Of a DNA stretch of 64,000 nt, positions 1 through 54,100 are shown piece by piece; the stretch's first letter is position 1; each line of letters opens with the position of its first letter. The notes beneath the pieces are model-generated. The model was given only the letters and a program-made list of their open reading frames with translations, did no database searches and was not told the DNA's origin. This stretch comes from Branchiostoma floridae. Lineage: Eukaryota; Chordata; Leptocardii; Amphioxiformes; Branchiostomatidae. The translations under genes were made by a program, and so were the position numbers. Where the stretch lies: NCBI RefSeq assembly GCF_000003815.2, contig NC_049983.1, positions 11,976,283 to 12,040,282 on the forward strand, given 5' to 3'.

Positions 1-590
1 ATTTTTGTCAAAAAACTTCTGACGAGGATAACTCAAGAAGGGAACAACGGATTTTCATGATTTTTGGTATGTAGGTACCTTTGACAATGTTGTACAAGAT
101 AAAATACTAATTATGCAAAATAGAAGTACATTTGCATAATTAATGAGAATATTCTATCATAGCAGTTTTTTCAATGTATCTCTTGTCCCGGACGTGATAT
201 GGTCTTGACATTTAGGTGGTAGATAGCTTTTAGCGTCATGACAAAGTGGCGTAAGTTTCAGTCCCCCTAACATTTAATTGTGGAACTGCAGGGGCGTTTT
301 TGTCAAGACATTCCAAAGAGGATAACTGCAGAAAGGAACGACAGATTGCCTGCATTTTAGGTATACATGTAGCTTGGGCAAAGATCTTCATAATGATATG
401 CATTTTATGCAAATGAGGACTTAATTTGCATAATTAATGAGGAAATTGTATAATTCCATTGTTTGCAATAACTGGACTTCGATAAATGGAACACTTGTTA
501 ATTATAATCGGTGGAATATATGCAGGTATCAAATAAGCAAATGAGGAACTTCTTTGCATAATTTCTGCAAAAATTGCAAAACAACTTAAT
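1..590. repeat. degenerate tandem repeat, period about 294 bp
   Basis: Two diverged copies start near 1 and near 294. Both carry the words GAGGATAACT, GGAAC(A/G)AC and CATAATTAATGAG in the same order. A weaker third stretch follows at about 520-590. No coding frame is preserved. It looks like an old interspersed or satellite repeat, but I cannot name a family. Confidence 0.45.
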
Positions 591-829
591 GATTAATGAT
601 CTGAATTGGGAATTTTACTTGTGACATGTGTACTGTACGTTATTCAATGATGAACAACACCATGCATAAATCATGTTAATGTTAAGTCATTTGCATGAAA
701 TTAACAAAAGCTCTAAATTTTCATGGAGGTATGAGGTCGCCGAACTCTAGTTCTGTTTTGTTCTGCTGACTGGCGTCCTTGACTTGCTGACATGATTGGT
801 GTTATCATGTTAACAACGGCCAAGACAGT

Positions 830-1960
830 ACAGCGGTCATCAAATCGCTCTCAAGAACTGTGGAAACCTGGGAGTTAGGTACTGATACAACTGTTTTGAA
901 CCTTACTGACTCAAATAAATTGATTAAATGATGCCAGCAACTGAATCTGGTATCATTCAACGATTGATTTCTTATGATACGAGTCAATGAAATAAAATAA
1001 CCAAGGACATTATACGTTATAAAAGAACAACAGAGAGCGATGACTCAAGTTTCCAACCTATTTTGGAAACTTGCCCTACACCTTCACCAACATTTTCTCA
1101 TTGCCTATGCAAGTTTGCATTAGTGTGCACTATTATGTGTAACGATGTTGACATAAACCGAACTTATAGCCGTCAATAACTTTTCATCAATTACCCCGTT
1201 CGCAACTCGTTTATACTACGCAAATAAGGCCCAAATGATAAGTATTGTATCTACACATATTGTTATAAGACTGGTCTAATACCTGAACAATGCACAGCAG
1301 AGATCAGAGTGGAATCACAGACACATCAATCTTTAGTTCCGGCACCTTTATTGTGCTCTTCCTCACAGAAACTGTGAAATCATTTTCCAAAGTACAGTGT
1401 AATGACAAGTGCAGTGTACTTAACATATCTGGAGTTGGTTACATGTCAATGAGATCATCAAGTTACACAATTTTGATTACAATTGGGGAGCTTTAGGGTA
1501 GTAGCACACTGTGGGGTAGTAGTAAATACATTCTTCTTCAAAACATGCATATGTGTCATAAATAGTACTGCACAGATCCAGTACTGCATGGTGCCATGAG
1601 AAGAAACACTTTACTTCTGCCAATCAACCCCAATGTGGAGTAAGACAAGAAGCCTTATACTTCTAGATTATGCATAAAACTATCAAAACAGGTTTTACTT
1701 CATTTTATGCTATTAGGATGTCCTTTGTCTCCACAGAAATTACCCAGATTCACCAAAAAGCAAGATAGAATATATTTAAGTATTAGGAGTAAAATTAGTT
1801 TCTAAGTCAGTTTAAAAATCATGCCCAAAGTCTAGATATTACCCTAAAATCTACATCCACATCAACAATAGCATAGTTACACACATCTTGTATATTCCAT
1901 ATAGTAATATCAGAACTACTCTGTAGCTCGTATTCACATCATTAGAGTCGGATCACACCA
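830..1960. repeat. left copy of a segmental duplication (partner about 7100-9545)
   Basis: Blocks at about 870-970, 1140-1290, 1350-1480, 1532-1640 and 1850-1940 recur in the same order and orientation at about 7130-7210, 7495-7600, 7880-8010, 9155-9262 and 9430-9530. The most similar block (1532-1640 against 9155-9262) is nearly identical. The right copy holds about 1.1 kb of extra sequence at about 8020-9140. No gene is seen in this copy. Confidence 0.7.
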
Positions 1961-2268
1961 TAAAAAATGGATCACACCATCGGAAAACTATACTATAGGA
2001 ATTGCTGAAAAGCAAAGCTCGTTGTTTCATGACGTTGACATGAATGTTCAACAAGTAGTAACATCTCTTATGCTCTTTTAACATACTGATTAACATAAAA
2101 TGCGACACAGATTAGTATGTTTTCTTCGGTTTGTGCTCTAGCATAAAATATATTCCTAATGCCTTTCTTCCTACAGAGAAATCACGGTTTAGTCTCTTAA
2201 GCTTGTCAACAAGATGACGAATCAGTCAAATCCCAAGAGATAAGTTACAGTGGAGACTGTAGTTAAAG

Positions 2269-2660
2269 CTAACGCTGGAAAGCAAGATCGTACAAACCAA
2301 GCGCACACTCCTCCTGCTGTTCTATGACAAGACAAAGAGCCTTCCAGGCGATGCCAAAAGAGGCGGGAGCCGTCACTAGACCACCGACAAAGGGGATTAC
2401 AGTGTCTATGGCAACATCCACCGCAATGGCTGCCGCAAGAACTCCACCTGCTCCCGCTACAACAAGGGCCTGTTTAAGATTTTGCCGATTGATATCGCCT
2501 TGGAAGAACTGTGTGATCTTCTTGACAAGAGACAGCCTGTCATCCACGAAGCGCTGTAACTCCGTCACGTCCTTGCCTGTCAGGGTAGCCAGGTTACGCA
2601 CGGAATCCTCGTTAAGACCGAAACCTCTTTTGAACAGCATCACCGTTGTGATCACAATAC
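2269..2660 (-). CDS. IRG-like GTPase, last coding exon
   Basis: 130 codons including the stop, entered in phase 1 after the acceptor ttaag at 2661-2665. It encodes the helical C-terminal domain: FGLNEDS, then an amphipathic helix, then a glycine/alanine-rich hydrophobic segment (VAGAGGVLAAAIAVDV) typical of membrane-contacting IRG tails. Confidence 0.75.
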
Positions 2661-5247
2661 CTTAAATGTATGACAAACGGTACATTCCTTCATCATCAAT
2701 TTCATACATCAAGAAAAAAATCGCAGGGCATAAGCAATATCCTCTTTCTGACGGTGACATTTTCTACCGTTGTGGATCCTCTCTTTGCTCCTAGGCAATG
2801 AATTGTAGATTATATGCTTAGCAAACTTACTTCATCATCCAAGCTGGACGTTTGGCCACGTCATGAATCACATAACGTAAATTACTTTTTGCGTGTCCCA
2901 CTACTACCTAAGGAGGGGAAGCTAGGATTTACGCTCTTAAAAAATAGGACCCTCATCGATATTACAGTTGCATTGATTCATCTGTCCCTTTGTATATCTC
3001 TGCTAGTTAATTTTTTTGTTAGATGGCGGCAATGGTATAAGTAAGTTCTTAACTTTAGTGCGTCCTCATCTTGTTTGTATTTGTTTATTTCTGTTTGCTC
3101 AATAAGAAAAAAAGAAAACCGTCTCATTTACTTAGGCAAGTTAGCTAACTGAACGTTTGGCAAGTATTCGAGTTAGCTTCGCAAACAGGGTTCCCTATTC
3201 GACNNNNNNNNNNNNNNNNNNNNNNNNNNNNNNNNNNNNNNNNNNNNNNNNNNNNNNNNNNNNNNNNNNNNNNNNNNNNNNNNNNNNNNNNNNNNNNNNN
3301 NNNCAGATCGTGATGAATAGCATCTGCTGTGGGATGTTCAGCTGCTTTAACATAGCTTCCTTCAGGGCAGTGGCATCCCAGCGGCCGCGCTGAATGTTCT
3401 CCACTATGCCACTGATGATGAAGACATCCTCAGGGGCTACGCGCCCATATCCCATCGTCTCCAGTTTGGTGACGTAGTCCTGCCGATGGAACTGAAGGAG
3501 TCGTTCTTCACCTTCCTCCTGCCCCCCAGCGAAGTAGGTCTTGTCGTCACGTCGTTTGTTTGCGACATCCTGGTCGAACTTGGAGCGGACGAACAACACC
3601 TTTTTTCCAATTTCTCTGGCCTTTGCTGCGATCCACACGGCGTTGTCGTGGACACGGTCACTTGTGAAGACGAGGAAAACATTGCATTCCCTCATCTTTT
3701 CGCCAAATTTTCTTGTGTATTCTTTCATATCAAATTTGGCAGATCGTCGACGTCCGCCGTCCTCTAGTTTGAAGAGAGCCCCTGGAAAGTCTACCAGGAT
3801 GACGTGGTCGTGTTCGGGATGAGGGTACTCTGCGGTGTCTGCCGTGGTCTCGATGGTGTCAACCGCTGCTGCCCCCGGGTCGCCAGCCTCCAGCCCCCGG
3901 AAGGAGTTGATGAAGGTGGATTTTCCCGCACCCGTGACACCGACGATGCCAATGCGGACGTACGCTTGCCCCATCCATGCTTCCTCATCAACGTGTTGCC
4001 CAACCTCCTCGTGGAGGGTTTGTATCATCTCTGCTGAAGATTGATCATTCGCATTCTTGACCTTGTCGGCAAACATGCGCAATTTCTCCTGCTCCTCGGG
4101 ACCAAGGTCGTCTTTTTTAATCTCCACACTGTATTAAGGAAGAAACATTTGAGGGTTGAGTTCGAAAATCGTAAACTTCGCCTATCCAGAGTGTGGTCAT
4201 TGTGTGTAACATTTCCAACCATATGGCTTCCACATGAGAATTTGAACCTCGAAACATCGCAATTTCGTTGAACTGGCCTGTTTCCACCATATAATTACGC
4301 AATCGGCTTCGCCCTGAAGGTGTCGCCAAAATTCACTTAAAAATCAGTATGTTTCAAAGAAAAATATTTTCTTTCGCGGCTAGATCATCTTTATGCATAT
4401 GGTAAATACATGTATGATATGTATGATAACAAGGCAAAATATTTACATGTAGACGATAAAAGGTGAATTTGTATCTGTATGATGAAATCGTTGATGAAGA
4501 TATGAGTGAAACATGAAATACTCATAGCTTTTGAAAATGTTTGATTTGAACAAATTTGCACAAATGCTGCAACTGAATCATCAACATGTTCGCTGAATAC
4601 TACTTCATTTGCCCCTGACCCACACCATCCGTTATCCAGAACATAAGTTATATATCTAGTAAGTACATGTGATTTTAGTGGTCTCTGTCGTTAATTATCG
4701 GAGATATAACCACCTCATTCGAGGATAATACCAATCAGTTTGGCATGCCAAAAACTCGCCTGAGAAACATGTATTTACTTTGCAATGGCTTGTTTTTAGT
4801 TTCACAGGTTGGGTAATTCCCCATACCTTGTTCCGCTTTCAGTTTTAAAATAGTCCTTTATAATGGCGCAGTTTCACATGTTGAGTCATCCTGATACTTG
4901 TTCCGCTTTCACTTTCAATGGTTATGTGTTAAATAGGGTGCGTTATGTGCACTTTTCCCTGCTTCAGCTGTAAGGATGGTTCATTTTTTGTTTGTTTTGA
5001 GGTTAGGATCTTATCCTGCGACAACCTGAAATTGGTTCGCGGGCAACCCAGCTTTTGACTAAGGTTGCCCACTAAGCAATCAGGCTATAAAGTATTTCGA
5101 ACCCTGCGTATTCACTATACCAGTACGATGACATAATGGTTACAATACTAGTATTCACCGTCCATCTGCAGATGTGGTCATAACTTCTGTCTGGTCAGAA
5201 TCTGGACTTCCTTGGGGTTCACAGGATTTGGACTGGTTGACTCCCAT
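2269..5247 (-). CDS. IRG-family (immunity-related) GTPase, interrupted by assembly gap
   Basis: Seen: three exons, 5247-5159, 4128 to the gap edge at 3304, and 2660-2269, with stop at 2269. Exon 1 ends in phase 2 and exon 2 supplies the missing base, so the frame is continuous. The protein starts MGVNQSKS, a myristoylation-type MGxxxS motif. The G domain has G1 GVTGAGKST (about residues 93-101), the IRG-like YPHP before G3 DFPG (about 143-146), and G4 SKFD (about 212-215). The last exon carries the helical C-terminal domain, with FKRGFGLNEDS and an alanine/glycine-rich hydrophobic stretch. Known: IRG proteins are GTPases that act on membranes in cell-autonomous defence. This one is of the GKS type. 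Inferred: about 435 residues are visible, near the family's usual size. Codons hidden in the gap, and whether an intron lies inside it, cannot be judged. No UTR exon was identified. Confidence 0.85.
3204..3303. other. assembly gap, 100 N
   Basis: Exactly 100 undetermined bases, probably a gap of unknown true length. It begins directly after the last readable codon of the GTPase exon on the minus strand, so any protein model read through it has an undefined stretch. Confidence 0.98.
3304..4128 (-). CDS. IRG-like GTPase, G-domain exon (cut by gap)
   Basis: The exon opens at 4128 after an acceptor cag and stays open to the gap. The first in-frame triplet is GTG, so this is an internal exon and not a start. 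It contains all the nucleotide-binding motifs of the protein and ends at the boundary with the helical domain. Confidence 0.88.
5159..5247 (-). CDS. IRG-like GTPase, first coding exon with myristoylation motif
   Basis: The ATG at 5247 follows a good acceptor (ttgcttacag at 5262-5271), so part of the 5'UTR lies on an upstream exon that was not found. It encodes 29 residues starting MGVNQSKS and ends at a GTGAAT donor in phase 2. Phase matching to the G-domain exon supports the join. A longer ORF starting upstream at 5349 reads through the acceptor and is probably not used. Confidence 0.65.
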
Positions 5248-5261
5248 TGTTTCCAACTTCC

Positions 5262-7080
5262 CTGTAAGCAACGCCAGTAAAACAACTAGTATCAATGAAC
5301 ATACACTACAAAGGTGAACTGAAGCCGTTAAGTTATACCACATGTACAAGCACTGTGTCCACGTTACATGACATGAACATTTCTTGTAGGCTATTTATAA
5401 ACATAACTTATAATACGCGGCTTATAACTCATACATATTAAGGCATCAATAGGTACAAAATCAAATTGCGGAACAATTCAGAAACAAAGACGCTCGTGCT
5501 GGTATCACGAAAATGAAAGCGCCACGATAGTGTCACGAAGGTGAAAGTAGACATAATCGTTATTCTTTTCCAACACTATTGAATAGTGCAGTACAGGGGC
5601 CATTTCATTAGTTTGAGTCAGATACAACATTTCAATCAAGTGTATGGTTGCAGAAACGAGCAGAAACCACACATCCCCGTAAAGATTTGTGTCAGGACGT
5701 CGGTGTGACTGGACAACCCAGCCGCCGCCGTCTACCTGCGGAACTAGTTTGTTATATAAAAGACGGTATAAAATACGGTATGACAATCTAGAGATCCACG
5801 TACGAGTACACCATGGCAAGACATTGCAAAACAGATTCAGAAAAGAGAGTCTGAACCAACCTTTCTCAAAGCTATGCCAACGCAACAGACCACCTTGCAC
5901 AATGAGTCAGTTGTTTGTCACGGTGAGGGGAGGTGTAGTGTAAAAGTTGTCCTATTGGCTGGTATTTTTACCTGGGGATTTTTTTATAATAGCAGTGAAT
6001 TTCCCATGACAGAGGGCATGGTGGCCTTAAACAGTGTGGATCACAGATTTACTAGGCTCAAATACATATATCCCATCCCACTGAAATAGCCGACCTGTCT
6101 GTTCATGACCTTTTAGCTTCAGGTACATGCGTCATCAAAGAGTTCGTGTAGACAAATTACCGCGGCCCTTCACCAGGGCATTATTCTGTTTCTGTACTTG
6201 GTAACTAAAACCGCCTAACTTATTTCCCATCGCCCGTCACATGTGGGAAATGATGCGTTAACGCTTACCCTCGCCCGACAAGTTCAACAAAAACAAGCTA
6301 CGTGATTGGCTATATAGAAGTATGACCTGTAACCTGTAGGTGCGTTGGGACAGGTATGTTCATTCCACATCCGATTGACATATAACGTCAGCAACAAAAC
6401 CAGCCATGGCTTAACTTCACACAAACAAACCTTGCATATAGTGTAAAAAGTGACCATCGGAACGTTTCTGCGTCACGTCGAATGGGTATGTAAAAAAAGA
6501 ATCCGAAGTTGACTTTTTCTTTACGATATAGTCGAAGAAACGGAAAATATGTGTCATTTCGTGTAACATGTTCATTTTTATGCTGCTTTTACCAATTTCA
6601 AATGCGAACTTTCATATTTCATGGTTATCGCTCAACTTTCCACTGCCAGAAATGAACTTTCCTGCGTTTTTGTCATTACAGGCAACAAAGCACCACAAAA
6701 TGCTCGGAACGACTTTGCTTTCGCTCAAGCTCTGGAAGTATTTGTTGCGTGCCAGTAACAAAAGGGATAATGGGATACTAACCCGTTACATTGCAACGGC
6801 TGAGGAATGCGTGTTCATCGTTTCATGTCGACATGTCACCGATAAATTTAAAGGTGAGTTTGCTCTTCAGTTGCACCAATTTAAGACAGAACCCTAGAAT
6901 GTGAAATGTTACTGATCTGTGACCTGTCGGAAGGTTTTTGAATTTGGAAAGAATTTGATCAGCCTCCGTATCTATGTACGCGAGGTTCATGTATGCCCTA
7001 AACATCGCTGTTGCAATTTCATTTTGTTCCGATGAATGGCGTGCTTGACAGGTTGACCTGACAGCCTTGCACCAAAAGTA
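5262..7080. other. no gene identified
   Basis: Upstream flank of the IRG-like gene. Only short frames without recognisable domains are present on either strand. It should hold the promoter and untranslated first exon of the GTPase, but I could not place them. Confidence 0.5.
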
Positions 7081-7099
7081 GGAAAACTTGGGAACATAA

Positions 7100-9545
7100 A
7101 ATATTGCTACAGTTGTTTCAGATCTGGCCATAACTTAAGTTTTGAACCTTATTGAGTTCAGATAAATCGAATGAATTGATTACATTTACATTATTCCAGC
7201 AACTGATACTGACATTATTTAAAGGCCAACGTTAGTAACTTAAGATAACATTATAAACTATGTTGCTATTATGATGGAATAACAGAGACCATGGAAATCA
7301 AAATTTCCTATTTTCTTATAGGATACTAGTACATGTCAACATCATCATAATCCTATAGTCCTAGTACATGTACACGTATAAAAAAAACAGTACTCTTAAG
7401 TGTTGTAAGGTTGGCTTCCAGATAACATTATAACAAAAGTTGCCATTTTCTCATCAACTATGTAGCTTTGCCTTAATTGCATAATTTTCATTTAACGATG
7501 CTGACCTGAACCTTACTTATAGCTGTCAAAAACTTCGAATTCCCATCACTTTTCATTCTCACTGATTGTGCAAACAAGGCCAACAGACCTTCCAACACAC
7601 TACGCTTCCTTCGCCAAGACGATTATGTTTCAACAGCGTTCGTGTAGCTGTTAGTGACCAAGATAACTCGTGAATACCTGGATGGGTGGTTATGATATTC
7701 AATATGTTGGTAGGTCTTAATGAGACCTAAAACGTACTAGCTTTTGGGCCCCCCTAGCCATATTCTCAGTTCAATGATAAACATTGTATCTGCATGTATT
7801 GCTATAAGACTTATAAAATCCTTAGATTGTACACAGTAGACATCAGAATGGAGACGTAAACACATCAACCTTAGTTCACTTTTATTGTGCTCTTCCTCAC
7901 AGAAACTGTGAAATGTTTCCAAAGTAATGACAAGTGCAGTGTACTGAACCTACAAAAGTTGGTTACATGTCAGTGAGATCAGCAAGCTACACAATTCAAT
8001 TACTACTAAAATGTGAAACCGAAACAAACAAAAATTCTAAATAACCAGGGAAATGAAAGGTTTACTAAGGGTAGATTTTTTGTAGTTGGTTTGATCAACA
8101 GTAATTAAGTTAATAAATTGTTACGCTGGTGAGGTAAAAAATTTACGCAATTAGTGAGTGTTACATGAAAAAGTGAAACATATAAAATTGCAAATAATCT
8201 AAGAAATTAGAATTTTCTAAATTTTTTTTCACAGTTTTCCACTTGACAACATGAATCAATAGAACTACAACATTTAAGAATGTTCATCACTTTGTACATT
8301 TTAAACTTATGACAATTATTTCCTTACCAGAGCAGGGATGTTATACATACTAATGTAACAAACTGTATGTTTGCTGTATTGACCAACAGAATATTCAACT
8401 TGTCAGAGACAGTCTTTGATTAAGAGATAGCAGAAATGGAACATTACTTATAAAAACTGTAAATTATGATCATACTCCTTGACAGTTCTCAAGCCATTAA
8501 GTAAAACCAGTATAAGTATACCAGTGATCTGACTTGTCAAGTAGTTCCCTTCCTCTGTGGCCAGTCATGTTCAAACCAAATATCAAGTTAGTTAGTTAGT
8601 TGCCAATAACAGTGATTTTTTCCAGTTGTTTGACAAGTACTGTATATACAATTCTACAAAAATACTGCTCTACGGATCACCTATTTATACGTGGAAGTTC
8701 TACTAGCTTTTGTTCATCTAGACTTTCTACAGTTTCTTGCTAAGACGAGCACCTATTCAGTAAATGCTATTTACAAGCAGGGTTTCCATGGCTGTTACAT
8801 GTACATCCATCGCAGACCTCATATCTTAAGATTTCTTAAGGATGCAACAAGTTCACCTTGTGTATTCATAATTCTCATACAACACAGATCTGTACACCAA
8901 CTACTTTTTAGACTTCCCTTTGCATTGCTCAGACACATCTGACATACAACAATGGGTTTTGTACATGTCAATCAGCAAGTTGGACTTGCCTACTATCCAC
9001 ATTAAATGATCACAGTTACTCCCTTTACTGGAGTGGACTGGTCATAAATAATGTTGTACAAAGTTTCATCTAATACCAGTTTATCCCAGGGATGGACAAC
9101 TGGTGAGTGTTACTGTAATGTAACAACATACTGTGTGCATGTGGCATTTCCACTTCTTCAAAACATGCATATGTGTCATAGATAGTACTGCACAGATCCA
9201 GTACTGCATGGTGTTATGAGAAGAAACACTTTACTTCTGCCAACCAACCCCAATGTGGAGTAACATAAGAAGGCTGATATTTCTGGATAATGCATAAAAG
9301 GACCAAAATTACATGATATTAGGATCTCATCATTCACCACAGATTACCCATGTTCACCCCAAATAGGCTAAAATATCTTCATGTTTTAACAATAGAAATA
9401 GTTTCAAAGATTTTAGAAATCATACCAAAAGTCTAGAGATTACCCTAGAATCTACATCCACATCAACAACAGCATAGTTACACACATTGGCTGTATATTT
9501 TATATAGTAATATCAGAACTACTCTGTAGCTCATATGCATCTCCC
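7100..9545. repeat. right copy of the segmental duplication, downstream of MITF
   Basis: Partner of about 830-1960, with an unmatched 1.1-kb stretch at about 8020-9140 that was inserted here or lost from the other copy. It lies just past the MITF stop codon, and the blocks at 9155-9530 could be MITF 3'UTR. A minus-strand AATAAA (plus TTTATT, 7881-7886) sits in the duplicated block, but no polyadenylation site can be proven. Confidence 0.65.
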
Positions 9546-10073
9546 ACTGTATTTACATCAAGAGTCGGATCACACCACTCCATATAATCACATCAAACAT
9601 TTCAATATTCTCATCGCCTCAATACCAACACTTCACTCAGTCAGACATCTAGCCATGTCTGCCACAATCTGTTATCTTCCACTTTCAATCATATATATAC
9701 AACAACATTTGTTAACCTCTAGCATTCTAAGTTCCCAGGTAACCAGTACAAATGTGGTGCAATCTGCCACCTGTAGAATGCTCAGGGTTATACCTGCTGT
9801 CTGTTTTGAGATGGAAAGTTTGTCAACAGTGTTGCATGTCCTGTCATTCACCAACTCAAAGTCAGCTTGTGGCCCATTGTGTTGTTGTCCATTCTTGATT
9901 TTCCCAAATCACCATCTTTTTCCTCTATCGCATGATTCTATGAAGTGTCATTCTTGTACACCTGGTAGTATTATTCAATGCTAATGTCTAGTGTAGTCAC
10001 AAAATATCAGTAGTCCTAGTGGTTTGCCTTTTTAAGCCTGTAGTTCCAGTATGATTTGATAGATGGCTCATTG

Positions 10074-10373
10074 TCATTGGAGCTGCAGGAGATCAGGATG
10101 GTCTTCCATACTGTTGATGCTGCTGCGTCGGCTGCCGTCAGGAGACACTGTGGCCGACAACATGGGGTCTCCGCCCGGGCCTTCGTCCATCATGTCCTCT
10201 AACGTGATTGTGATGGCTGGAGCCGGGGCTTCGGATGGTGAGACTGCACCTCCCCCCTCAGCCAACAGGAGGCCCTCGTGTCTCATGAACTGTTCGGTGA
10301 TTTGTGACGTGGAGGTGTCGTTGGTGAGGGGCGTCGTCGGGATGCTGTGGGCACGACAGTGCATCTCCAACTC
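10074..10373 (-). CDS. MITF: MITF exon 8, C-terminal domain and stop
   Basis: 99 residues from ELEMHCRAH, including an acidic [14 protein letters not shown] stretch and the conserved serine-rich SRRSS near the end, a regulatory phosphorylation region in the family. Stop TGA at 10074-10076. The tail is shorter than in vertebrate paralogues. Confidence 0.95.
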   Translation of the reverse strand, partial: ELEMHCRAHSIPTTPLTNDTSTSQITEQFMRHEGLLLAEGGGAVSPSEAPAPAITITLEDMMDEGPGGDPMLSATVSPDGSRRSSINSMEDHPDLLQLQ

Positions 10374-13300
10374 CTGGAAAGAGTGACACAAACAACAGAG
10401 TTGATATATAACTGTACAGCAGCTAAATGTAGATTATCAAAATGCTATTGGTCTTGACTTTATTTGGACCCACAATTAGCTTGGTCAACAGACAGTGTAG
10501 CTATACTATGGTACAACCTACAATGTATTCATAATTCTGTCAAAAAACAGGCTATATGAACAATCTTTATTATACTTTATTATATATATTAACACTTTTT
10601 CTGATAAACATTACCTTTACAGTTGTTGCAACTAGTATTAGAGATCGTCTGTTTGTTTACCTGTATTCTGAGCAACATTTTCCTGTTCATCTGCTCCATC
10701 TGTTTCTGCCTCTCCTCCATGTGCCTCATACGCTCGTGTTCCTTCTTCAGCCGCCTGATGTAGTCCACAGAGGCCTTCAGGATCGTGCCCTTATTCCAGC
10801 GCATGTCACTAATAAAACAAATTGCAGAAGATTGTCAACACCAGCAATAACTTTTATATCTTTTTTCATTCCGAAGAAAACCTGCAAGGTACAAATGTAC
10901 TTTTAAAAATATTTGATTCTACCATTAATATCCTGCCTTGATTTCTAGTAATTTTTTCAGGGAATGTCTTCTTTGGATGGTCCAGAGACTATACAATCAG
11001 CCATTTCATGAGAATATTGGCATATCTCTAACTTCCATTTCTTTCATTGTCCACAGATGTGCGTGAAGATGTGTGTGTTGACCTGAGTCTCATAGGAATA
11101 GAAACTGAGTACTTTCACAAAAACTGTATACTAACTACTGACTATAGGACACTTGTATGTTGGCTTAAAACAGCAGGTATGATACTTACGGGTCTGCTGT
11201 CTTTGGCAGCAGAGTTCCCAGCTCCTTGATTCGGTCATTGATGTTAAATCTTCTCCGTCTCTCAACTGGAATGATGATAATATTGTTTGGTTCTCAAAAG
11301 ACTTCAAACTCCAGATAAAACTTGCTGGTAATATACACTGTTTCCTTACTCTATCAGTGTTCCATAGAATTTTAAATGAGAGGTACCTTTCATCTTTGAG
11401 AGGGATGTATTCACCAAAACAAAAAAATTCAGAACACTGATAGATATGATATATACTGAAAGGGCCAACCTTACCCCCAATGCCTTAGCTTACACCTGTT
11501 AAACTATCACCAGTTTAATATGATTACAGTAATGTGGGGCACCATGAATACACCAGGCCTTCACCAGTTAGTTGGCAGAAACACAGGGTTAACAATGGCC
11601 TTCAGCCACAAGGGCCACAGCCTTTCTGTTGACATTGTATGCTTGTGTAGAGGGACAGAAAGACGGAGACATGAAGACAGAGCAGTGGGAGAGAAAATCT
11701 TATACCAATGTGGCATGTCTCCACTGTATAACAAGGACATGATTAGGCAGGCAGGTAGGCAGGATTAGAGACATTTTTTTGTTATTCGAAAGAAAGAATA
11801 CCTTGGTGCCTTTGATACTCTTATGTCTTTCTTTTTAATTTTAGCATAGAAAGGAACAAAGCTGAAAATGAATGACATGATGTTGGGGAAAGATACAGCC
11901 AGGGGTGAGAGGGACTAGCAGGGCTGTGAAAAGAGAACATGACCTACAGTTGACTCTGTTGTAAGGGTAGCCATAGTCAGGGAGGGTAATTGGACAATAG
12001 GAGGGGGGTGATAAGCCAAGGTAGGAGGGATTAATTATGAACTGAAGACAGGTTAGTAAGAAGGCTGATTAAACAGTTTCTGAAACTGTGACAGCAAAAC
12101 ATTACAGGTTTATGGAACAAGGAATGAAAAGAAATGAAAGGAAAAAAACGCAGGAGTGAGAGGTGGTTTGAAGATGAAGGGATGGGCTGATGAAAGACAA
12201 GAAGTAGATGGAGAAGGATCAGGATAGAAGGTTGGATCAGGGTAGAAGGATGGAATCAGGGAGTGTGAGTATGGAAGGATGGTCTGCATACTTATGTTGT
12301 GGTTGTCTTTCTTCTGCCTGTCCTTGGCCAGAGCCATGGCCTGTTCAGGTACCCCACCTATCCACCCCACCATCTCAGAATAGCCCCACTCATCTGCAAT
12401 GGAAGGAAAGGTTGGCCCATGTCAAATAACACACCTCCATCCCCCCTTCTAGCACCATCCTTGAGATGTAGACATCAACATGATTCTACTACAACAAGTG
12501 AGGACATACAAGACATTCTCCCTATCTATCTCCTTTTCCATTGTTATATAATACATAAATGCATACACATCTGGGAAGTCAAAAAGTGAATGATATTCAA
12601 CGATAATGAGGAGTGAAAAATTCTGTAGACAGTTGGAAATTTCAAAGAGTAAGAAATGGAAAGAAAGAGAACATATTCTGACAGCACTTTCTTGAATTAT
12701 TACTTTCTAATACATGATTCTAAAACCTGAATTCATTACCATGCTCATAATACTTACTTAACAAAAAAATTATCAACTCTGAAAGCTAATTTGTGATTTA
12801 GCTGAAAATCAGACATTGATCAAAGTTTTTTCCCCAAAGAGTCTTGAATTATGACTGTAACAGCTGTGTCTACATGGTACTTACTCATGTTATGGTTGTC
12901 CTTCTTCTGTCTGTCCTTTGCCAGAGCCTTCAGCTCACTCTCGCTCATCTGTACCGGCTCCTTCTTGATGTTGGTGAGGTCAGCGGGACAGGACGCCGAT
13001 GTGTTGGCGGTGACCATCGGGGTGAGGGAACCCACCGTACCGAACCCATCCAGCAGGCTGGACGTGAGCGGCATCTACAGAACAAACAGAACCAATCAGG
13101 ACATGTTATGAGATGTTGTAGGTGTCATCACATTTGTCTTCTTTAACCTTACCATTATGTCAGGTTATATAAGAAATATTTCTTGACTTGGCCTGGTATG
13201 TAACGGTGACAGCATCAAGAGAAATGAAGGCAACACTACGGGTAATTACCTTTAGCTTCTGAGAAAAATCAATAATTCTAAATAAGGCCACACCGATTTA

Positions 13301-16300
13301 ATTTCTTGATTCACGGATTCGCTCGCTCCTATTTTTTGGAAAATAAAATAAAAATGAAAATTACCACTTAGCAAATTTTCACCATTAATGAAACCATTCA
13401 CCAACTTTCTTGTGTAGCAAATTGGGCTTTATATTATAAGCTCCTTAAAGTGTGGGTACAGGTGCTGTTACTGTACAAAAATAGTGTTTTTGTACTTTTT
13501 TCAAGCTGAAAACTTTTTTCTTTATGTTTTGGATTAGCCGTTACCTTTACCCCAACAGTTTTACAATTTTTATTTTCATTTTTATTTCGCCCTCTCGCTC
13601 CATATTTTCTATGAAAAAATCCGTGAACCAAGAAATTAAATTGGTGTGACCTAAGTCACTGATTATAAGATAACAAATGGGTACTGTACAGTAGCTAATG
13701 CTTCTTATGACTGATTATTCCCATGACTGTTGGTTTATCATATCATGTATATTTCACATCCTTGAGCTGTTGACTTAAATCATTTGAGGATTATCCCATC
13801 AAAACACCTGGTTTACACACTTGTTTGAAATTCAATTGGAGCAGTATATGCATGTCAGTCACTACTGAACGAAAAATTTCTCATTATACAAATTATTACT
13901 GGTAGAAATGCAGTCTTTTGGTGCATAATCACACACTGAGTCGTGTTGTTTTCAAGCAACATATATCATGCTAGTGCTGCAGCTGTATGTACTGTTTTGC
14001 CACAGGCAATACCGACATAAAAATGTTGCACAAAGCATGGTAGCTGCAGGCAGGTGTTGATGGGACAGGACTTGGAAGACAATAAGTTATGTTTCCCTTT
14101 GTTACACCTGAGCTGGCAAACCCTGCACAAACCCTAAGATCTTGCCATGTGTCTAGCCTTACTAAATCACTTTTCTAGTTGCTAGCCTTCTCCTAGCCCC
14201 AACAGGCTGGTCAGAGAGAGGCAGCCAGACAGCAAGAGATTGTGTAACACAGGCTAGCCATGTGCCCCAATGCCTTACTTCTTGTCTTTACTGTTTGAAT
14301 GTCTGCACGTGTGCTCGCTACACGTGCTTGTCAGACTGCACCAGTGACTACACAGAACTGACTCTTACTTCATGTACTTTGTACTTTTATCGGGGTCACA
14401 GTCCCGAACACCTAAGTTCCATCCTAAATTATGGATCAATCAAACTTTCAAATCATTCTAATTTTTCTAATTTCATGTAAAATATATGGCATTTTGCTTA
14501 CTATTTTTTCCTGGAGAGGCCAAGACAATTCAAGAGCTGTAAAGTAATTATGACTTACTATCTAAATGACAGCCATCAATAAGACAATTCATTAGAGTCT
14601 GCAAATCTAAATATGAAAAGAATTGTAAACTTAGACTACTTACTTCGACAATGACTGTTGAGACATGTTTGGATATGTTGGAAGTACTATGTCTCCTGGA
14701 ACACAGGATGGCCTTGTGTACAGGCATGGTGGAAGCCTGCCTGCGTGTACTACTGGTTCAGTTTACACCTATCCCACCCCCTGTACTTTGTTCATCTTTT
14801 ATTGTTCTGCCAACAGTGTGATAACAGTGCAAACACCTGGTTGGCTGAGATCTGACAGCGGTGGGGGCGGGACTGCTATACAAACTTTGACCACTGGGTA
14901 CAAATAAAGCTGCAGAATGGATCAATCAATGGGAATGTGTGTGGAAATGTTAGTCAATTTTTTCAGCTTACACGATGTCTATTTTTGTTTCTGCTCCTAT
15001 TTATAAAATTCATTCTTGTTAACTTCTGCAATTACTTCATGATCCCCCAGGGACAGATTTGTGTCAACTTATCCACCCCTAAATTCCCATTGGTCTATTC
15101 CTGATCTGATTGTTTAAATTCACAATGTACACATCTGCTGGGGACATGGGACTTGTCTCACTTTATGATTATAAGAACACTTCAAATAAGTCTGTCATCT
15201 TTAAACAATGATGTAACTTTTATCCAAAGCTCACATTTCTGTTTTAGATACTGGATTTGCAAGTTGGTTTGAAACTTACACACAAACTGTATTTTTCACC
15301 TGTATACCATCCATGTAGCTGTCACTGGTCATAGCTGTATATGCTGTTTGCAAAACAATAATCAACTTACTCAAATTTAGTTTGTGTACATCTGGCTTGC
15401 AGAGAACAATGTAACTAGAGGGAGGCACTGGCCAACACCAGCAATTACAATCAGTCAATGAGGTTCCTTCCCTAACTTTGATGTCACTTCCAAACACTCT
15501 AACTGTAGCCCTGTTAAGTGTCTTCACTATACTGTATGTATACATCTTCTAACAGCTAACAAGAAATTTGACTTTACTTTCTTCAATCCCATGTTAACCA
15601 ACTAGATCAATTCTTTGATTTCCACGTGAAGATCCTTCACAGATATGGACATTCCATGCAAATCATGTCCTTATCTTCCCATTGGGTGGGTGCTGTGCAG
15701 TGTGTCTACTATCAGCAGGATTATGCAATCATATTGTGCAATCAACAGACAACTGTGTTTCCACACCTCTATGCGAAATACTCTGATCATCTCTCAAAAC
15801 ACTTTTTATTTCTTTTTCTATCGACAATTGCACAGCCAAACCTTATTTCTTTTTGCTTCTAAACAAGTGTGTCTACTATCAGCAGGATTATGCAGTCACA
15901 TAGTGCAATTTACAGACAACTGTGTTTCACAATGTGTGAAATACTCTGAACATCTCTCAAACACTTGTCTTTTTCTATGGACAATTACACAGCCAAAGCT
16001 CCTTTCTTTTGCTTCTACACAATCTGGCAACAATTTTGGAGCTGAAGCTTATTTCTTAGCCTGATTTAATCTCACTTATAGCAGCCTGCCCAACATTTGC
16101 TGGCCTCCGCGGGGAGGGGCCAGTTACAGCCCCGGACAGCAGAGTTTGTGTTACACAGACAACTTATTTCTCTGCTGTCCAAATCTGTTCAGCTAACCTC
16201 AGCACAACCTTTACCCTACCAAAGGTTAACGAGAACGCACTAGGTGAGGCCCCAGGCCTTCTCAATGTCTAAAGTCCTCTATGTTTGGTGCTCAACAAAT

Positions 16301-19300
16301 CCACCTTTGGACTGACATGTTTGTATGAAACATCCAACACAAACAATAAACACATATTTGTTTAGGCCTGTTCTCACAAATAACCGATCACTGCCAACTG
16401 CATATACATATATATGCACATATCTTGCACCTATTAAATAAAACAGAAAGGCTAAAACATTCTGAACTTCGATGATGATTACAGCTACACAATGTTGTTT
16501 GCTTGTTGTTGTGTAAAGATTAGACATGTTTGTGTGTGATGTTGTGAAAGTGTTACTCACCGTGGATGAGATCTGCTGCATGGGAGCGTCCAGGAAGTTG
16601 AAACTGTCGTCGAAGCTGGACTCCAGGCTGATGATGTCATCAATAACATCGTCCATCTACAGGGCACACATCGAAAACACAATTGTCAGATACAGACAGT
16701 CTCATCACACATATTGATTCATCATCAAATAAACTCTGCTTAAAGATGCTACAATATTTGCCTATTTTAGTATTTACCTAACTTGAAGCTTTTCCGCTGG
16801 AACATAGAGAAGCTAATATGATACTTGATTTTCCCCGCTAGGTGTCACCTTGCCAGGAGGTGACATTGGGAACAATCACACTCACCACAATTAATACTGT
16901 ATCCTCACTGATGTTCTTCACAACCAACTATCTTCTGGTACAGAATTTGCTGATCTACTTTAGATTCTGAGAGGCGAGTTTGCTTATTTTCTGCTAGGTA
17001 AATCACTATGATAGAGATAACAACAATCTAATCAGAGCTGCTGACAGCTGCTCATCAGTCAACCCTGGCAGCAACAAAGTCCTGCTTACCTCAGAGTAGC
17101 ATGTCTTCATATCACACAGATGATACAAAAGCACATCAACATGACAAAATTTAGAGATAGGAGGCTAATATAACAACAGAAGGCCCTGAGATCTTTACAA
17201 TCTATGCTGTGGTTGTTTCTACGAGCGTTCAAACCTGGCACAAATAACAACTCAAGAGTATTAGACGCACAGGCCAGTTAAAGTTGATAGTGCATGCCTA
17301 GCACATTTTCGTACTTGATATGAGATACACTACACTCTATTACTTGCCAACCAGTGAAAACATGCATGTCAGTGGCCTTGAAGATCATCTGCGCATCTGA
17401 ATATCATTTGTGTAAAATGAGTACCAACAAGGCAGCTAAAATTTCATCACAAAGTAAATCATTGTTGCTATCTTTTTGATCAGCATTTTGCAACACGTCC
17501 ATAAAGCTCCCAAAACAGATTTGAGTATGATGATATTTAAAATGTGTCCAGTTAGATGACATATAGCCTGATAAGGGGAGGTTTCTATTTGTGTGAGGCC
17601 ACCTGTGACCATTACAGCGATGTAAACAACTTTGTCCTTGAGCACATGTCCTGGTCACCTCTAGCTACACCCTTACTACAATATTATCTCTCGTGAATCA
17701 TAGCTAACCTCTTCCATGTACACTAGACAGATAGCCTAATTATAAGCATGGCAAAATATGGCAGGTTCAATGACACAGTAGTCTGAGTAAAAGACATTGA
17801 AGGTTTTACAAGCAACTAACTTTTTACCAATATTTCATAAGTTACAGTAATTTTCACATTATTTTAGTACTTAGATCAATATGAAGGTTTTACAAGCAAC
17901 TAACTTTTTACCAATCTTTCATAACTTACAGTAATTTTCACATTCTCTTATACTAAGATCAATATCAAGAGCTGGTACAATTGAATTTATAACACCTTGT
18001 CCCATGAAGTAACAAAAAGATCTTCCAAACCTGGCCATAATTGCAGATATGCTCCACTACCTTGTTGAGAAATGCTGCTCTGGCTGTTCCATAATATCTT
18101 TCATCCATTCTTATGATTCTATCAGGATCAGGTTGTGGTAACTGCTGGGTCTTCAGTTTTGGACCTATGTGTATGACTGACTGGCTCTGGGCAAGCAGCA
18201 GCCTAGACTGACACCTGTTTTCAAGATACCATAACACTTGCTGTCCATCAACAGACAACCAAGTCACCTACTGTTCACAGACAAACATGTTGCACGTATT
18301 TACATAAATTACAGCAAGTAGAATTGCTAGAAAACCAAGACAGGAAAAAATACAACCAGAATAAAAGAATTCAAAGTCAGAAGGCAAGGGTCAGCAGCAG
18401 TATGTATCCAACAAATGTCCAAAGGATAAAATAGACCTCTATCCATTTTGTCCACTTGGATGCCCCAGAACCCATTAAGCCATTAGTGTTAACCTTGAAC
18501 AGTAAAGGACTTGTGGGATATATTCAAATTGCAGTTTCACATTATGCATCCCTTGCTATTGAAATTTTGCCACCATGAAAAGAAAGTGAATGACAGTTTT
18601 ATTTGGCCTCTTGTCTGTTCAAAGTTTGTCTACAACGTCTGCCAAGCTTAATTGTTTCCTCAACCAATTGCTTAATTTACAATAACAAAGGCTTAATTTT
18701 CATTGTTTGGCATCATTTGCCTAATCCCAGAACAAAAATAAAATTTTCTGTCTTGTTAAAGGAAGCGATTCCCAAGTTGATAACAAACAATATACATATA
18801 TTCATATTTCTTTTTTCATTAATATTATAATAGCAATCAATCTTTGGTAGACGAGTAATTCTACTAGCAGCCTATAACATAGTTTGTCCACACAGAATGG
18901 CTAGTTGCTTGAAATGCTGTCCATATGGCATTCAAATACATATAACATCAAAACCAAGGGTAAACAGGTCTCCTGATATATTTTGTCACCCAACTCATTT
19001 ACCATGGAACTATGCAATTATCTCTTGTATCTTATAATAAAGGAGCCTTATTGCTGTTAAAAATGTCTAACCTAAAGAACTCTGGTACTTTCAAAAGGTG
19101 TGTTATCAAACAAGAAAATAAAATGTTTGTCATTTTACCTAAAGGGAATTCCATATGTTAGATACAATGTACAACATGACAAAATATCCCTTTAAAACAA
19201 TCCAATTTTGAGAATAGAGTAGCAAGGTGGCCCTTTTTTGCACATGTTTGTACATTAAGCAACGTACCTCAAGTTTGAGGTGAAGCAAATGAAATGGCTG

Positions 19301-45197: not shown

Positions 45198-48100
45198 GTA
45201 AGTTCTTTCTTTGATTCTTTCTTCCCACGTTGATGTTCCAGGATTCCACCATACGGAGCCTGGTGTTGGTCAGTGGTGTGTGTTTTGTCAATGGCCAAAA
45301 GCGTACACTGATAAACATGTTAGTTGACAACATCTGACCGTTTCGTACATGTTTTGGTTTGGCGTTTGTTGTGATCTACTTTTGTTAAGACGCAGTCGTC
45401 CCCTGGGTTCCGATGACTAGGTTTTGGTACGGATGTGCCGTGAGTCATCTTGTAATTTCTTGAGAGACGGAGAGAGCGAAATCAGAAATATGTTACAGAC
45501 CGTTTCTTTGTGACTTATCTAAGTTCTTCAAACGTTTGCGCAAACTTAAGGTCAGTTCTAGGCATACCATGCTCTTCGGAAAACACTATTTTCCACAGCT
45601 TTCTAAGTTTACTGCGCCTAGAATAAAGGGCATAGCATCATACATAACATACATACGTTACAAGAAAACTAAATCTTAAGTGTAGGATTAAAGTCTAATG
45701 GTAGAATGGTGACTGACTTAGAGACCGAGATAGAGTCTAGCAGTAACATATCGTTTTCCAGCATAAGTGGGCATTTTGGCTTTCTCTTTCCTCGCCACCT
45801 TTTCTGGCAGTTTGGGTCAACATCTCCTTAGCAATGCCAAACACGCGGGGAATCCTGCCCTGGAAGTTTCGTTTGTGTGCGAACTAGTGAGACAAGAACA
45901 TCAGATTGGCAGGGCAGGGCCCCAGATTAATTAGCGATTTGTTACACGATCTCTCAATCAACCAATTAGTGCGATTGATAAACAATGGGCACTAACGCTA
46001 GTGTCATAGGGCAAAACAGGCGACCAAATAGGGAATGATATGTTCACACACTGGGTTTTGTCCATATGAAGAACTATTGAACCTGCATACAGTTTGAGTT
46101 AGCGGTTTGTTCTTAGGACAAAGCTTCGCAAAGATGTTGATACACGGGAATGTATAAATGTCACTTTTCTTTTGATTTTGTTTCTGATCTGCAATATCTG
46201 TGATAGCCGGTGTATATGCTATATGCATGTACTTAGTATTTGTTGTTCTTCTCGCTACATTTAAGAAGTCCCATGTGTCAGATTCGGTATTCGAGTACTC
46301 TTTCGAACATGGTAGACTGAGTGGAAATATTTCTTTATATACCAAACAACCATATCAGAAACAATGTACTACAGGCTCTGATTTAATTTTCAGATACTAG
46401 TACTCGTTTTCGTACAATATAAAACAGTCCTGGAGACCCTCTTTATCTTATAATGTGACTTTGCGATCCGGGCTGGCCAATGTGACGTCCCGTCCTGTCA
46501 CGTCTTAGGCTCTGAAGACAAGAACGGGACGGGTGGGATAAAGGAGGAGACAAGCTGTCAGGGAGTTCTCCAGGTCCGCAAGCTGAACAAATATCTCGTT
46601 TGTACCACAAACAACTTCAGGACCGCATAAACTTCTACCCTTAACGCTTAGCAAACCACAGGCCCCCCGCTGCACGGGCACTTGGTCCGCTTGTCTTTGG
46701 CTAAAGATACAAAGTAGCTGTCTGAAGTGAACTACTTCAGTCAATTAGGCGTCTCCCGATGTTGATAATCCTATGTTAAGTGGAAGACAAGTAGCGACGT
46801 TTTAGCCCTCTTGCTATTGTCTATAAGCTGTTGACCTACTAGCTCTTTTCATTATAGAAGACAAAATGCTTCTGGGGGTATCCACGTACACGTTTCGTTT
46901 CCTTTATTACTAGTACTAGTATGATGTCGACGGTCTACACTGTCATGTATTATCATTGGATTTCAACGGGTGCGCCCTGAGAACTGCACTGATGATATTT
47001 TGTGTGAATGTGCTTTTTCCTGTTGCCGTTGTCCTTATGTAAACGCTAACAAGGATTACATAACTTTAATAAACGAATATATCAAGGACAACACAGAATA
47101 TGTATTTTGCCATACACATCAATATTTCAGTTCTAAGAAACTTTCCTGCAATGATTAGCTTCTGTCTAAAGATCAAGTTACTGAGATAGCGGTTGTCAAC
47201 CGAGTTGTCTGGCGTCCAGGCGCTTACAATGCGATTTGAGGAGTCTCAAATTTTGGGCATAATTTTAGTTATACATAATATGCTACCATAATAATGATCA
47301 ATGTGGCACAACTTTCCTCACTGCTATGGCTTGAGTAGCTTAAATCTCCACCATGGCACCATGGTCCCTGAAGCCAGGACAGACATAGGAAAGCCTGGTT
47401 TATCGGTAAGTCTCATCTATCCACTAATGGAGTTACTGGTCGTGACATGATGTAATCTTCTGCATCATCTCGTGCAGTGTGGTAGACTGACTCCCACACC
47501 GCGCAGCCGACTAGTAATCCTTCTCCCATCACCTCTGTCATCAGGTTCTTAAGCAGGCTGGACATCAACGTGCTCGGTGCCCGCACCATCTGTGACAACA
47601 TCCCTGGCCTGGTTCCCAAGCAGCGCCACATCTGCCAGACCCACCCCGATGTCATGGTGTCCATCGCGCGCGGGGCCGAGCTCGGCGTGCGGGAGTGCCA
47701 GCACCAGTTCCGCGGGGACCGCTGGAACTGCTCCACGGTGGACAGGGACGCAACAGTCTTCGGCAAGGTGATGGACAAAAGTGAGTACGAGAGACAGAAG
47801 CTTGTATGCCCTGGTCTTCAGGTTGGAGATTAGCAGTCAATGAAAAAGTGCAAGGGTCAAGTCTAGTTTACGTGACAAGGATGCTTTTAGCACCGTGGCG
47901 TTGATACGTGCAAGAATGTAAGGATGACTCTTCAACAGTCTCTGAAAGAGGCTAGGGCAGGTATACTGAGAAACATATAACTCATTCACTGTCATGTTGT
48001 TTTGGAAACAACTCTGAGGGTCATTTGAGCCATTAAACAGGAAAAAGGGGATTTATTGGATTGTTTTATTATCCTTAACATTACCACACAAGACACATTC

Positions 48101-51100: not shown

Positions 51101-54100
51101 GTACGAAACCCTTACTGACGATTGCCCCCATTATAGTATTAGTTTGCAATGCTGAAAGGACCATGTTAAAAAGCTATCTATCTAAAGCCAACATCTGGAC
51201 AAGAATTGGAGTGTTTAAAGACAGATGACTATAGACTTTGACACCCTAAACCCATTTTCGCGAGTGTTTCATCAGTAGTACTACAGTGCGAGTGCTTTGG
51301 CGCTGTGGTTCTGGCGAGAAGCCAGTGTGCTGCCGTCCAAGTTCTGGAAGTCCTGAAGGTACTGGAAGCCCATCTCGGTTGATGAATAGCTCGTGGCGCA
51401 GGTTCTGTGGTACAGCAACACGGTCAACATGTCCCCGCTCTGACCCCCGGCCGGCCCGGCCTGCATCTGTCAACAGCCGCGGTAAGGGTGCGCTTCGGGC
51501 AGAGCGTTGGGCAGCCCTGGCGGTAGTGCCGTCTTTCTTGTGCCAAACCATTCCTGTCTATCCCGACATGGGATAGGCCATTCGATATATACAACGCCGT
51601 TCTTTGGAGCATCTTTGTGATAGTGAATTTTAGACTCGAAATTGAAGCTGCAAGTTGGTCTGGTGCTGAATTGCAACTTTTCAGATCGGTAGGACATTGG
51701 GCCAGATTTCTGCGCTGTCTCGGATACATTATCATTGAGAAAACACACTGAGACAAGATTTGAGAGGATATAATATTTTACACATCAACGAGACATTTCC
51801 ATCTATGCCATGTGACAGTTTTATGGGTGCCTTTCTGCAGGTAGCCGTGAGGCAGCGTTCGTGTACGCAGTCTCAGCCGCCGGAGTCATGTTCTCCATCA
51901 CCCGCTCCTGCAGCCTGGGCGAACTGCTGGACTGCGCATGCGACCCCAAGAAGCGGGGATTCAGCGAGGACTCCATGGTCAGTCCATTTGTTAACGTTAT
52001 CAAACATTGTCTCTCTTTTCCCTATCACATATTGTTACCATCCTTAACCGTGCCATACAATATCTTCCCGATCGATTCTATGTTGTTAATCAACTTTAAT
52101 CAAATGATCATATGATTGACCAGGTTCCACGAATCGTTAGGATAGAACAAGGAGGTTAAAAATCAAGGATAGAACAACTTAACACGTAAAACTTTTTGAT
52201 AAGCGATGTCTCCCTTGAAGAGTTTGAGAAGCATCTGAGTCTAGGTCTAGGCTTTGTATATAACTTTGTAAACACCGGGATCAAGCTAGATTATGGCGCC
52301 ATAACTTATAGTCCCTCATTGACTTAACGAGTAGCCGGTTGAACGTTTAATACCTAATCCTCTTCGCTCCCTTTGGTGGAGCATAAGACACTGACTTCCT
52401 CCAGTCCTTCCTATCTTGGGGCATCCATCTAACTTAGCTTCGTGCCAGGTCTTTCGTCCTGCCTTCATCTCCCCTTCTACAGTCTTCCCCCAGCTCCCTA
52501 GAGGCCTGCCTCTGATCCGTTTTCCTTGAACGTTTAGTACCAGGTCTATATCCCTAAATTGGTAATTGCTGTATTCCAGGGTGAGTTCGAGTGGGGAGGC
52601 TGCAGCGACAACGTCAAGTTTGGGGAAGGCTTCACGAGGAAGTTCGTGGATGCGAGGGACCGGAGCCAGAGGGACGCCCGAGCGGTCATGAACATGCATA
52701 ACAACAGGGCAGGGAGGAGGGTGGGTACGTTTTGCCTCACTACATCGTCAGGACTTCACTCAAGTCTCAGGAGATTCTAGCTGATGCGGCAACCGTCTTT
52801 AACAAACCGCTGGTTCATTATGCTTGCAGGTCATGTATGACCATCCCGCAGGCTATATGCCGATATCTAAGGGGGCCTACTGAACAGTTTAGCCGATGAT
52901 TTGTGGATCTAGTTTTAGACACGATCTATCAGAGTTGTCCACTGGTGTTGAAACCTCGCGTGCAACACATGGCTCTTATAACCACCTGTAATCTTGGTTT
53001 TTCATCCGTATATCCTGTTGTGTACAGGGCGTTGCTAAGAACATGAAGATGGAGTGTAAGTGTCATGGAGTGAGCGGGTCCTGCACTCTCCGCACCTGCT
53101 GGAGGGCAATGGCGCATTTCAGGTACGGTCACCGGCACACTCAATAACTCTTCCATTAGTATTACAGTCACATCTCTTATCATCTTTCTTATCATCTCTG
53201 TCTTTAAAATAATTCCATACATGAGTTCCACTTTGAATTCTATACACCTGTCAGGAAGGTGACGGATTACCTGAAGCGGCGGTATGACGGGGCGGTCGAG
53301 GTGACCATGAACCAGGACGGCACCAGACTCATCGTGTCCGACAGGAACCACAAGACTCCCACCAAGTCCGACCTGGTCTACTTTGAAACTTCCCCGGACT
53401 ACTGCCTAGCTGACGATGATACAGGTACATCCTGACGAACTTTTGAATAAAGCTAGGGAGGCAGAAAAAAAATCAACATTCAGAGTTCACAGCTGTGCAA
53501 AAATATATGTAATCTTCCACCTGATGCTGTAAATCCATTTAAGTCCAGGGGGATTAAGTTTCGCGGTAGCAAGACAATGGAGTGTTTGCGGTGGTTTTAA
53601 GTTCGCGGTAGCGCCATATTCTCTAGTAACACACATTTGTAGATCTTTGTACTGTAATGGAAATATTCGCGGTGGTTTTGAATTCGCGGTAAAGCGGCTA
53701 CTGCGAAAATTGCAAACATAAAACCAACGCGAACATTTCTGCAGTATTGGGTGGGAAGATCTTGAAGTTTACCTGCCTTGTCTTTTGACAGCAAGATGGG
53801 CATGATCAGCTGTCAGAAAAGTAGTAGTGTATGTCATCCCTCACCAATTCGACGGACGTAGCTGTTGACATTTCATGATCACCATACATGTGCATTTTGG
53901 CTGTAAAAATGCCGCATGAACGTGGCCATGTTTAATACCAATAGGTTTTATCATCCCCTTTGATTGCCTATTACCTATTGTTTGAATTTTTGTATATCTG
54001 CATGCAAAAGTTCATGAACACCAAGATAAAATCTATCCTGGCACTCACTCAGTCACTGGCTCTCTTCCGAACAGGTTCCCTTGGTACGGTGGGTCGGCAG

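Follow-up and report, generated by a model that had tools for sequence, protein, structure and literature searches.

A predicted optional exon with a duplicated first half of the basic region in the MITF/TFE gene of a lancelet

Introduction

MITF is a gene linked to pigment cells and lysosomes. Its vertebrate product occurs in (+) and (-) forms, which differ by the optional exon 6a encoding the six residues ACIFPT. Like the lancelet exon predicted in the present study, exon 6a adds residues optionally, immediately N-terminal of the basic region, and keeps the bHLH-zipper intact. Unlike the lancelet exon, it arises from two acceptors of one exon (PMC2839965, relevant section), comprises 18 nt and involves no duplicated sequence. 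Slightly higher DNA affinity is attributed to the (+) form in a passage of a review (PMC7140685), and in one study exon 6A was reported to be without effect on localisation (PMC11467436, relevant passage).

TCF3 (E2A) is also a bHLH gene, whose DNA-binding region is encoded alternatively by exons 18a and 18b (E12 and E47), according to the pertinent sections of PMC12324280 and PMC5852603. The G-rich exon sequence described in the former (PMC12324280) is shared with the lancelet predicted exon. At TCF3 a whole bHLH exon is swapped in a mutually exclusive manner, whereas in the lancelet gene the first basic half only is copied and addition is the mode supported. The third related system is the tandem duplicated exon substitution, with 236 human cases annotated; these also involve a tandem copy within the gene with functional residues conserved, and the changes are described as mostly conservative in the corresponding text of PMC9741552, in the main text of which MITF is not named. 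The human cases substitute homologous regions, whereas the lancelet copy is partial and is preceded by new sequence and a new acceptor.

Amphioxus Mitf is described in pigment cells of the frontal eye (PMC7417673, relevant passage). The text of a lancelet paper, PMC3626940, holds neither 'exon' nor 'splic'. The listed literature on amphioxus MITF/TFEB, splicing and tandem exons did not yield the predicted exon, which does not prove its absence from print. Here, a duplicated part of MITF exon 5 is described together with the splice signals around it, and the ways in which it could be used are compared.

Results

An MITF/TFE gene is located on the minus strand of the window, the whole 64-kb stretch of DNA that was analysed, at 11976283-12040282 of its contig. 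The assembled model covers exons 4 to 8 only, at the coordinates listed below, and these exons when joined give a single open protein to the stop. Among solved chains, part of this protein matches MITF (6g1l, E 9.4e-44) and TFEB (7ux2, E 3.8e-43); against Pfam HLH it scores 56 bits. The SCPADL region aligns with TSSSCPADLT of TFEB. An acidic MDDVIDD segment is present, which we take to be the counterpart of one in vertebrate MiT/TFE proteins. Judged by its sequence, the gene is a bHLH-zipper member of the MiT/TFE family (MITF, TFEB, TFE3, TFEC), and the role of the serine in the aligned region is a predicted one. The features, all on the minus strand, are as follows.

Exon 4: 16561..16656, minus strand, 96 nt, ending in ISST with a phase-0 donor ranked 1st of 469.
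Exon 5: 12885..13074, minus strand, 190 nt, starting with MPLTSS and ending in a phase-1 donor.
Original 14-codon block with phase base: 12885..12927, minus strand, 3' end of exon 5.
3' splice site of the predicted exon: 12394..12413, minus strand, AACCTTTCCTTCCATTGCAG, sixth best of 512 AGs.
Predicted optional exon: 12292..12393, minus strand, 102 nt, 34 residues (20 plus the copied 14).
Non-duplicated 5' part of the predicted exon: 12335..12393, minus strand, 56% GC, with three GGGG runs.
Duplicated 14-codon block with phase base: 12292..12334, minus strand, 38/43 identity, the donor GTATGC following.
Exon 6: 11190..11265, minus strand, 76 nt, containing IERRRR, which completes the basic region.
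Exon 7: 10661..10808, minus strand, 148 nt, HLH/leucine zipper.
Exon 8: 10074..10373, minus strand, C-terminal region and stop.

Exon 5 carries TSASCPADL, with a 14-3-3-type serine by the TFEB alignment, NIKKE, with a SUMO-type lysine, and the original basic half. The codon split at the junction of exons 5 and 6 specifies the Ile equivalent to I212 of MITF.

The initial annotation had described a recurrence of the last 14 codons of exon 5 at a distance of 590 bp downstream. The recurrence was confirmed at a spacing of 593 bp: the copy at 12334-12292 is identical to the end of exon 5 at 38 of 43 bases (14 codons plus the phase base). The alignment also bore out the claim that the differences are confined to third positions and that only an M/I change alters the protein; the copy differs at five bases, position 3 of codons 3, 6, 9, 12 and 14, with 13 of 14 residues kept. 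When exon 5 was compared by blastn with the 64-kb window, the copy was the sole non-self match at E<=1 (E 1.9e-11). The two donors share their phase, as had been stated; each is in phase 1 and each gives ATT (Ile) with exon 6. The block is thus a genuine duplication. It has the similarity and the shared donor phase of a tandem duplicated exon, and the match extends over 43 of the 190 nt of exon 5 rather than over the whole exon. For the non-copied 59 nt of the predicted exon, the best non-self match in the window had an E of only 0.35, and the leading 20 residues are without homology to the gene.

Outside the block, identity of the flanks is 12-40% in the bins examined, except for 5 of 8 bases at the donor. 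Gapped searches of flank against flank returned nothing below E 0.1 besides the self-overlap of two of the chosen segments. The flanks being dissimilar, the match reaches no farther than the coding requirement does, the donor (5/8 bases) excepted. Loss of similarity in the flanks with retention of the coding positions points, on sequence grounds, in the same direction as protein-level selection.

Splice signals of the predicted exon were scored with a weight matrix of the vertebrate type rather than one trained on lancelets. On this scale the 12393 acceptor has a score of 6.0, the sixth highest of the 512 AGs in 17000-9900; the acceptors of exons 4, 5, 6 and 7 rank 23, 11, 72 and 62, and among these known exons only that of exon 8, ranked 1, is stronger. 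Acceptor strength alone is no proof of an exon, because three AGs of the same intron (11923, 12570 and 12186) score as high or higher. The donor of the copy (GTATGC) is off consensus at +4 and +6 and ranks 90 of 469 with a score of -1.4, compared with rank 48 and a score of 0.8 for the exon 5 donor; it is also outscored by donor-like sites within the predicted exon at 12358 (3.8) and 12371 (3.2). The segment thus has the features of a cassette exon, namely a length that is a multiple of three, an open frame and consensus-like splice sites, with a donor only 90th of 469.

The chance occurrence of these features in combination was estimated at points sampled in steps of 3 and 7 bases outside known exons and N stretches. 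In MITF introns, 6 of 1851 points had a comparably strong, phase-matched acceptor with an open frame upstream of them; over the window, both strands included, 163 of 17635 points did. The frame of the predicted exon is open in the phase compatible with exon 5, a property shared by 0.3-0.9% of random points. Base composition of the non-copied 59 nt is exon-like: their GC content of 0.56, which is reached by 135 of 5384 intronic 59-mers, falls in the range of the exons (0.48-0.60) and not of the introns (0.32-0.41). The three GGGG runs in these 59 nt (12335-12393, minus strand) form a possible site for a splicing factor of the hnRNP H type. Across the window, GGGG clusters of that kind begin at 54 positions of the minus strand and at 0 of the plus strand.

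Protein-level selection on the copy had been proposed in the initial annotation, and the pattern of constraint supports it. Comparison of the original with the copy gave dN 0.029 and dS 0.97 (NG86, 14 codons). Occurrence of five of five differences at third positions had a hypergeometric p of 0.0024, the Fisher test of synonymous versus non-synonymous change gave p 0.0015, and one amino-acid change or fewer remained after five random substitutions in 0.8-1.0% of simulations; these values are optimistic and overstate the case, because the copy was picked by its conserved protein and 14 codons make a small sample. For pS the 95% interval is 0.17-0.88, and at 0.17 the chance of one non-synonymous change or fewer is 0.011. 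This last value, taken at the lower bound, counts against the view that the copy is a relic, used once or never and now decaying, which is conserved by chance or is younger than it appears. A strong acceptor, a suitable phase and an open frame are also rarely found together by chance. A relic would explain the off-consensus donor of rank 90 and the first 20 residues without homology, and the 14 codons are a short stretch on which to judge it; on balance such a relic is rather unlikely.

Use of the predicted exon depends on the phase of the exon that precedes it. Exon 4 ends in phase 0 and exon 5 in phase 1, and entry at 12393 keeps the frame only if the preceding donor is in phase 1. When exon 5 is joined to 12393, a 102-nt cassette adds 34 residues and the frame holds to the normal stop, as the initial annotation had proposed; the acceptor used is the 6th of 512. 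The protein bearing the copy scores 58.6 bits against Pfam HLH compared with 56 for the original, the two query proteins differing in length. Joining of exon 4 to 12393 leads to a stop after 11 codons, whereas its joining to 12388, 12373 or 12340 gives proteins in frame to the normal stop. These three phase-0 acceptors rank 228, 320 and 106 of 512. Addition is favoured over replacement because the strong acceptor at 12393 fits only exon 5 and the in-frame entries from exon 4 rank poorly. The segment 12393-12292 is probably a real cassette exon which is predicted to be used by addition.

The initial annotation had also considered that entry from exon 4 at 12373 or 12340 replaces exon 5. The frame is indeed kept in this arrangement; the acceptors are poor, at ranks 320 and 106. 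If exon 5 were passed over and exon 4 spliced into the copy at 12388, 12373 or 12340, the product would be an MITF that lacks both the 14-3-3-type serine and the SUMO-type lysine and has a complete basic region, a choice of the E12/E47 type. All three entries are open and in frame to the normal stop. Outright skipping of exon 5 breaks the frame, as its length is 190 nt, and a frame-breaking length is a common trait of exclusive exon pairs. Substitution by tandem duplicated exons is moreover a known class (PMC9741552, relevant sections), and bHLH exons are swapped at TCF3, as the corresponding parts of PMC12324280 and PMC5852603 describe. Against replacement, each of the three acceptors lies 5-53 nt beyond a much stronger AG, that at 12393, entry into which from exon 4 ends at the early stop.

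Enforcement of a mutually exclusive choice was also considered. The intron from exon 5 to the predicted exon is 491 nt, which is too long for exclusion by crowding. RNA pairing that might enforce exclusivity was not detected between the copy or the end of exon 5 and two parts of intron 5, the pairing being no better than that of shuffled sequences (z -0.1 to 1.75 in 4 comparisons). Folding of 12440-12150 likewise showed no signal (z 0.98). An inverted repeat of 21 nt (81%) between 12303-12323, within the copy, and 12180-12200 was unremarkable in the pairing tests. The arrangement of a mutually exclusive pair, with either exon alone in frame and flanked by good splice sites, was not found. Replacement is thus an unlikely mode of use, and the form insensitive to mTORC1 that had been suggested on its basis is a weaker model than addition.

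It is quite improbable that the segment acts chiefly as a poison or switch exon, joined mostly from exon 4, or used with other sites, to bring about premature termination and nonsense-mediated decay, with the coding copy serving a minor isoform. The stop 11 codons after entry at 12393 from the phase-0 exon 4 would suit such a role, as would the three GGGG runs in 59 nt, a cluster rare in the window; binding of HNRNPH1 to G-rich exon sequence controls TCF3 exon 18b according to the relevant section of PMC12324280. A poison role alone would not keep 13 of 14 amino acids, however, and G-run clusters occur elsewhere too, for example near 44151. Least credible of all is an alternative start at GCCATGG just before the copy, giving a short dimerising MITF without the activation domain: the ATG is directly 5' of the copy in a context that is strong by the Kozak rule, but a strong acceptor and an open, phase-matched frame are present upstream of it.

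Origins of the copy outside the gene were examined in the assembly (513,431,437 bases in 431 contigs). The region of the copy (361 nt) has a single place in the 513-Mb assembly. Misassembly of haplotypes was rejected on the basis of this one place, the unlike flanks and the match of only 43 nt. A mobile or repeated element is unsupported by the assembly search, in which simple repeats and very common words were skipped. A second MITF/TFE gene was rejected, as the exon 7 peptide had one match in the assembly; the exon 5-6 peptide (36 residues) also had one among six candidates, to exon 6 alone, in a search that returned neither the exon 5 block nor the copy and so gives no count of copies of the block.

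Several other features were observed in the window. Intron 4 of MITF contains an imperfect tandem duplication at 15699-16010 with spacings of 157-167 bp, the pairs being of 63 nt (92%), 43 nt (88%) and 42 nt (79%). Near exon 5 the same intron has an inverted repeat, 13285-13319/13618-13652, with arms of 35 nt that are 91% complementary and 298 nt apart, an arrangement that resembles a hairpin or a small inverted-repeat element. An open frame at 3304-4133 (minus strand) matches the family of interferon-inducible GTPases (Pfam IIGP, E 2e-24) and is adjoined by a run of 100 N at 3204-3303. Two exon-like stretches on the plus strand, 47486-47830 and 51816-51980, match Pfam wnt (E 9e-18 and 2.5e-12), and at least part of a Wnt gene is therefore present in the window.

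Discussion

The best explanation of these results is an optional exon, which would have arisen by an old tandem copying of the 3' end of exon 5 together with its donor. On skipping, exon 5 would be joined to exon 6 and ordinary MITF would be made. On inclusion, 34 residues would be inserted into the DNA-recognition helix at its midpoint, precisely where the two halves of the basic region meet. An insertion at this point would be expected to ruin DNA binding unless its final residues supplied a functional first half, as those of the cassette should. The last 14 inserted residues are the copied first half, ending in I/M, and together with IERRRR would re-form the helix. At the protein level the insertion would thus be shifted to a position just N-terminal of an intact basic region. 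Selection on the 14 codons on the junction side, with the preceding 20 residues unmatched, would follow because the copied half must re-form the basic region. We tentatively describe such an event as a 'self-restoring' splice insertion, in which the exon splits the recognition helix and brings its own replacement for the displaced half; this reading is plausible, and we hold it with less confidence than the presence of the exon itself.

The residues involved indicate what inclusion may alter. Counted on from A187-T192 as numbered in the relevant section of PMC2839965, the copied block corresponds to A198-L211 of MITF-M, and by residue count it holds the equivalents of human MITF K206 and K201. 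K206 is described as contacting a phosphate of the DNA backbone, its acetylation shifting the choice of targets (PMC10539308, pertinent passage), and K201 as potentially ubiquitinylated (PMC11467436). I212 is reported to contact a flanking base of the CLEAR box in the part of PMC6355916 that deals with this residue. The likely effect of inclusion would be that DNA binding is tuned and not destroyed, with an additional basic patch. The 14-3-3-type serine and the SUMO-type lysine would be retained, 34 residues farther off. Their MITF counterparts are S173, reported as a cause of cytosolic retention in osteoclasts, and K182, as given in PMC11467436.

The initial annotation had pointed out that vertebrate MITF is alternatively spliced at this place. 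The comparison holds for the segment and not for the exact site: counted from the junction, the six-residue insert is 19 codons upstream, and lancelet exon 5 is continuous through that position. After the shift described above, the lancelet insertion would sit a few residues from the position of the vertebrate insert.

DNA affinity and growth control are reported to vary among vertebrate MITF isoforms whose sequences diverge just before the basic region (PMC7140685, relevant passage). If lancelets, in which one MITF/TFE gene was found, alter this segment through another kind of exon event, the segment would stand out as one used repeatedly for control. One chordate MITF gene would then yield a form with two tandem half basic regions, in which the sites of nutrient control are spaced differently from the DNA-binding domain. 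This form would have been invented independently of the exon 6a switch of vertebrates, which affects the same protein segment, and duplication of the interrupted half-helix would be a way to tolerate an insertion within a DNA-binding helix.
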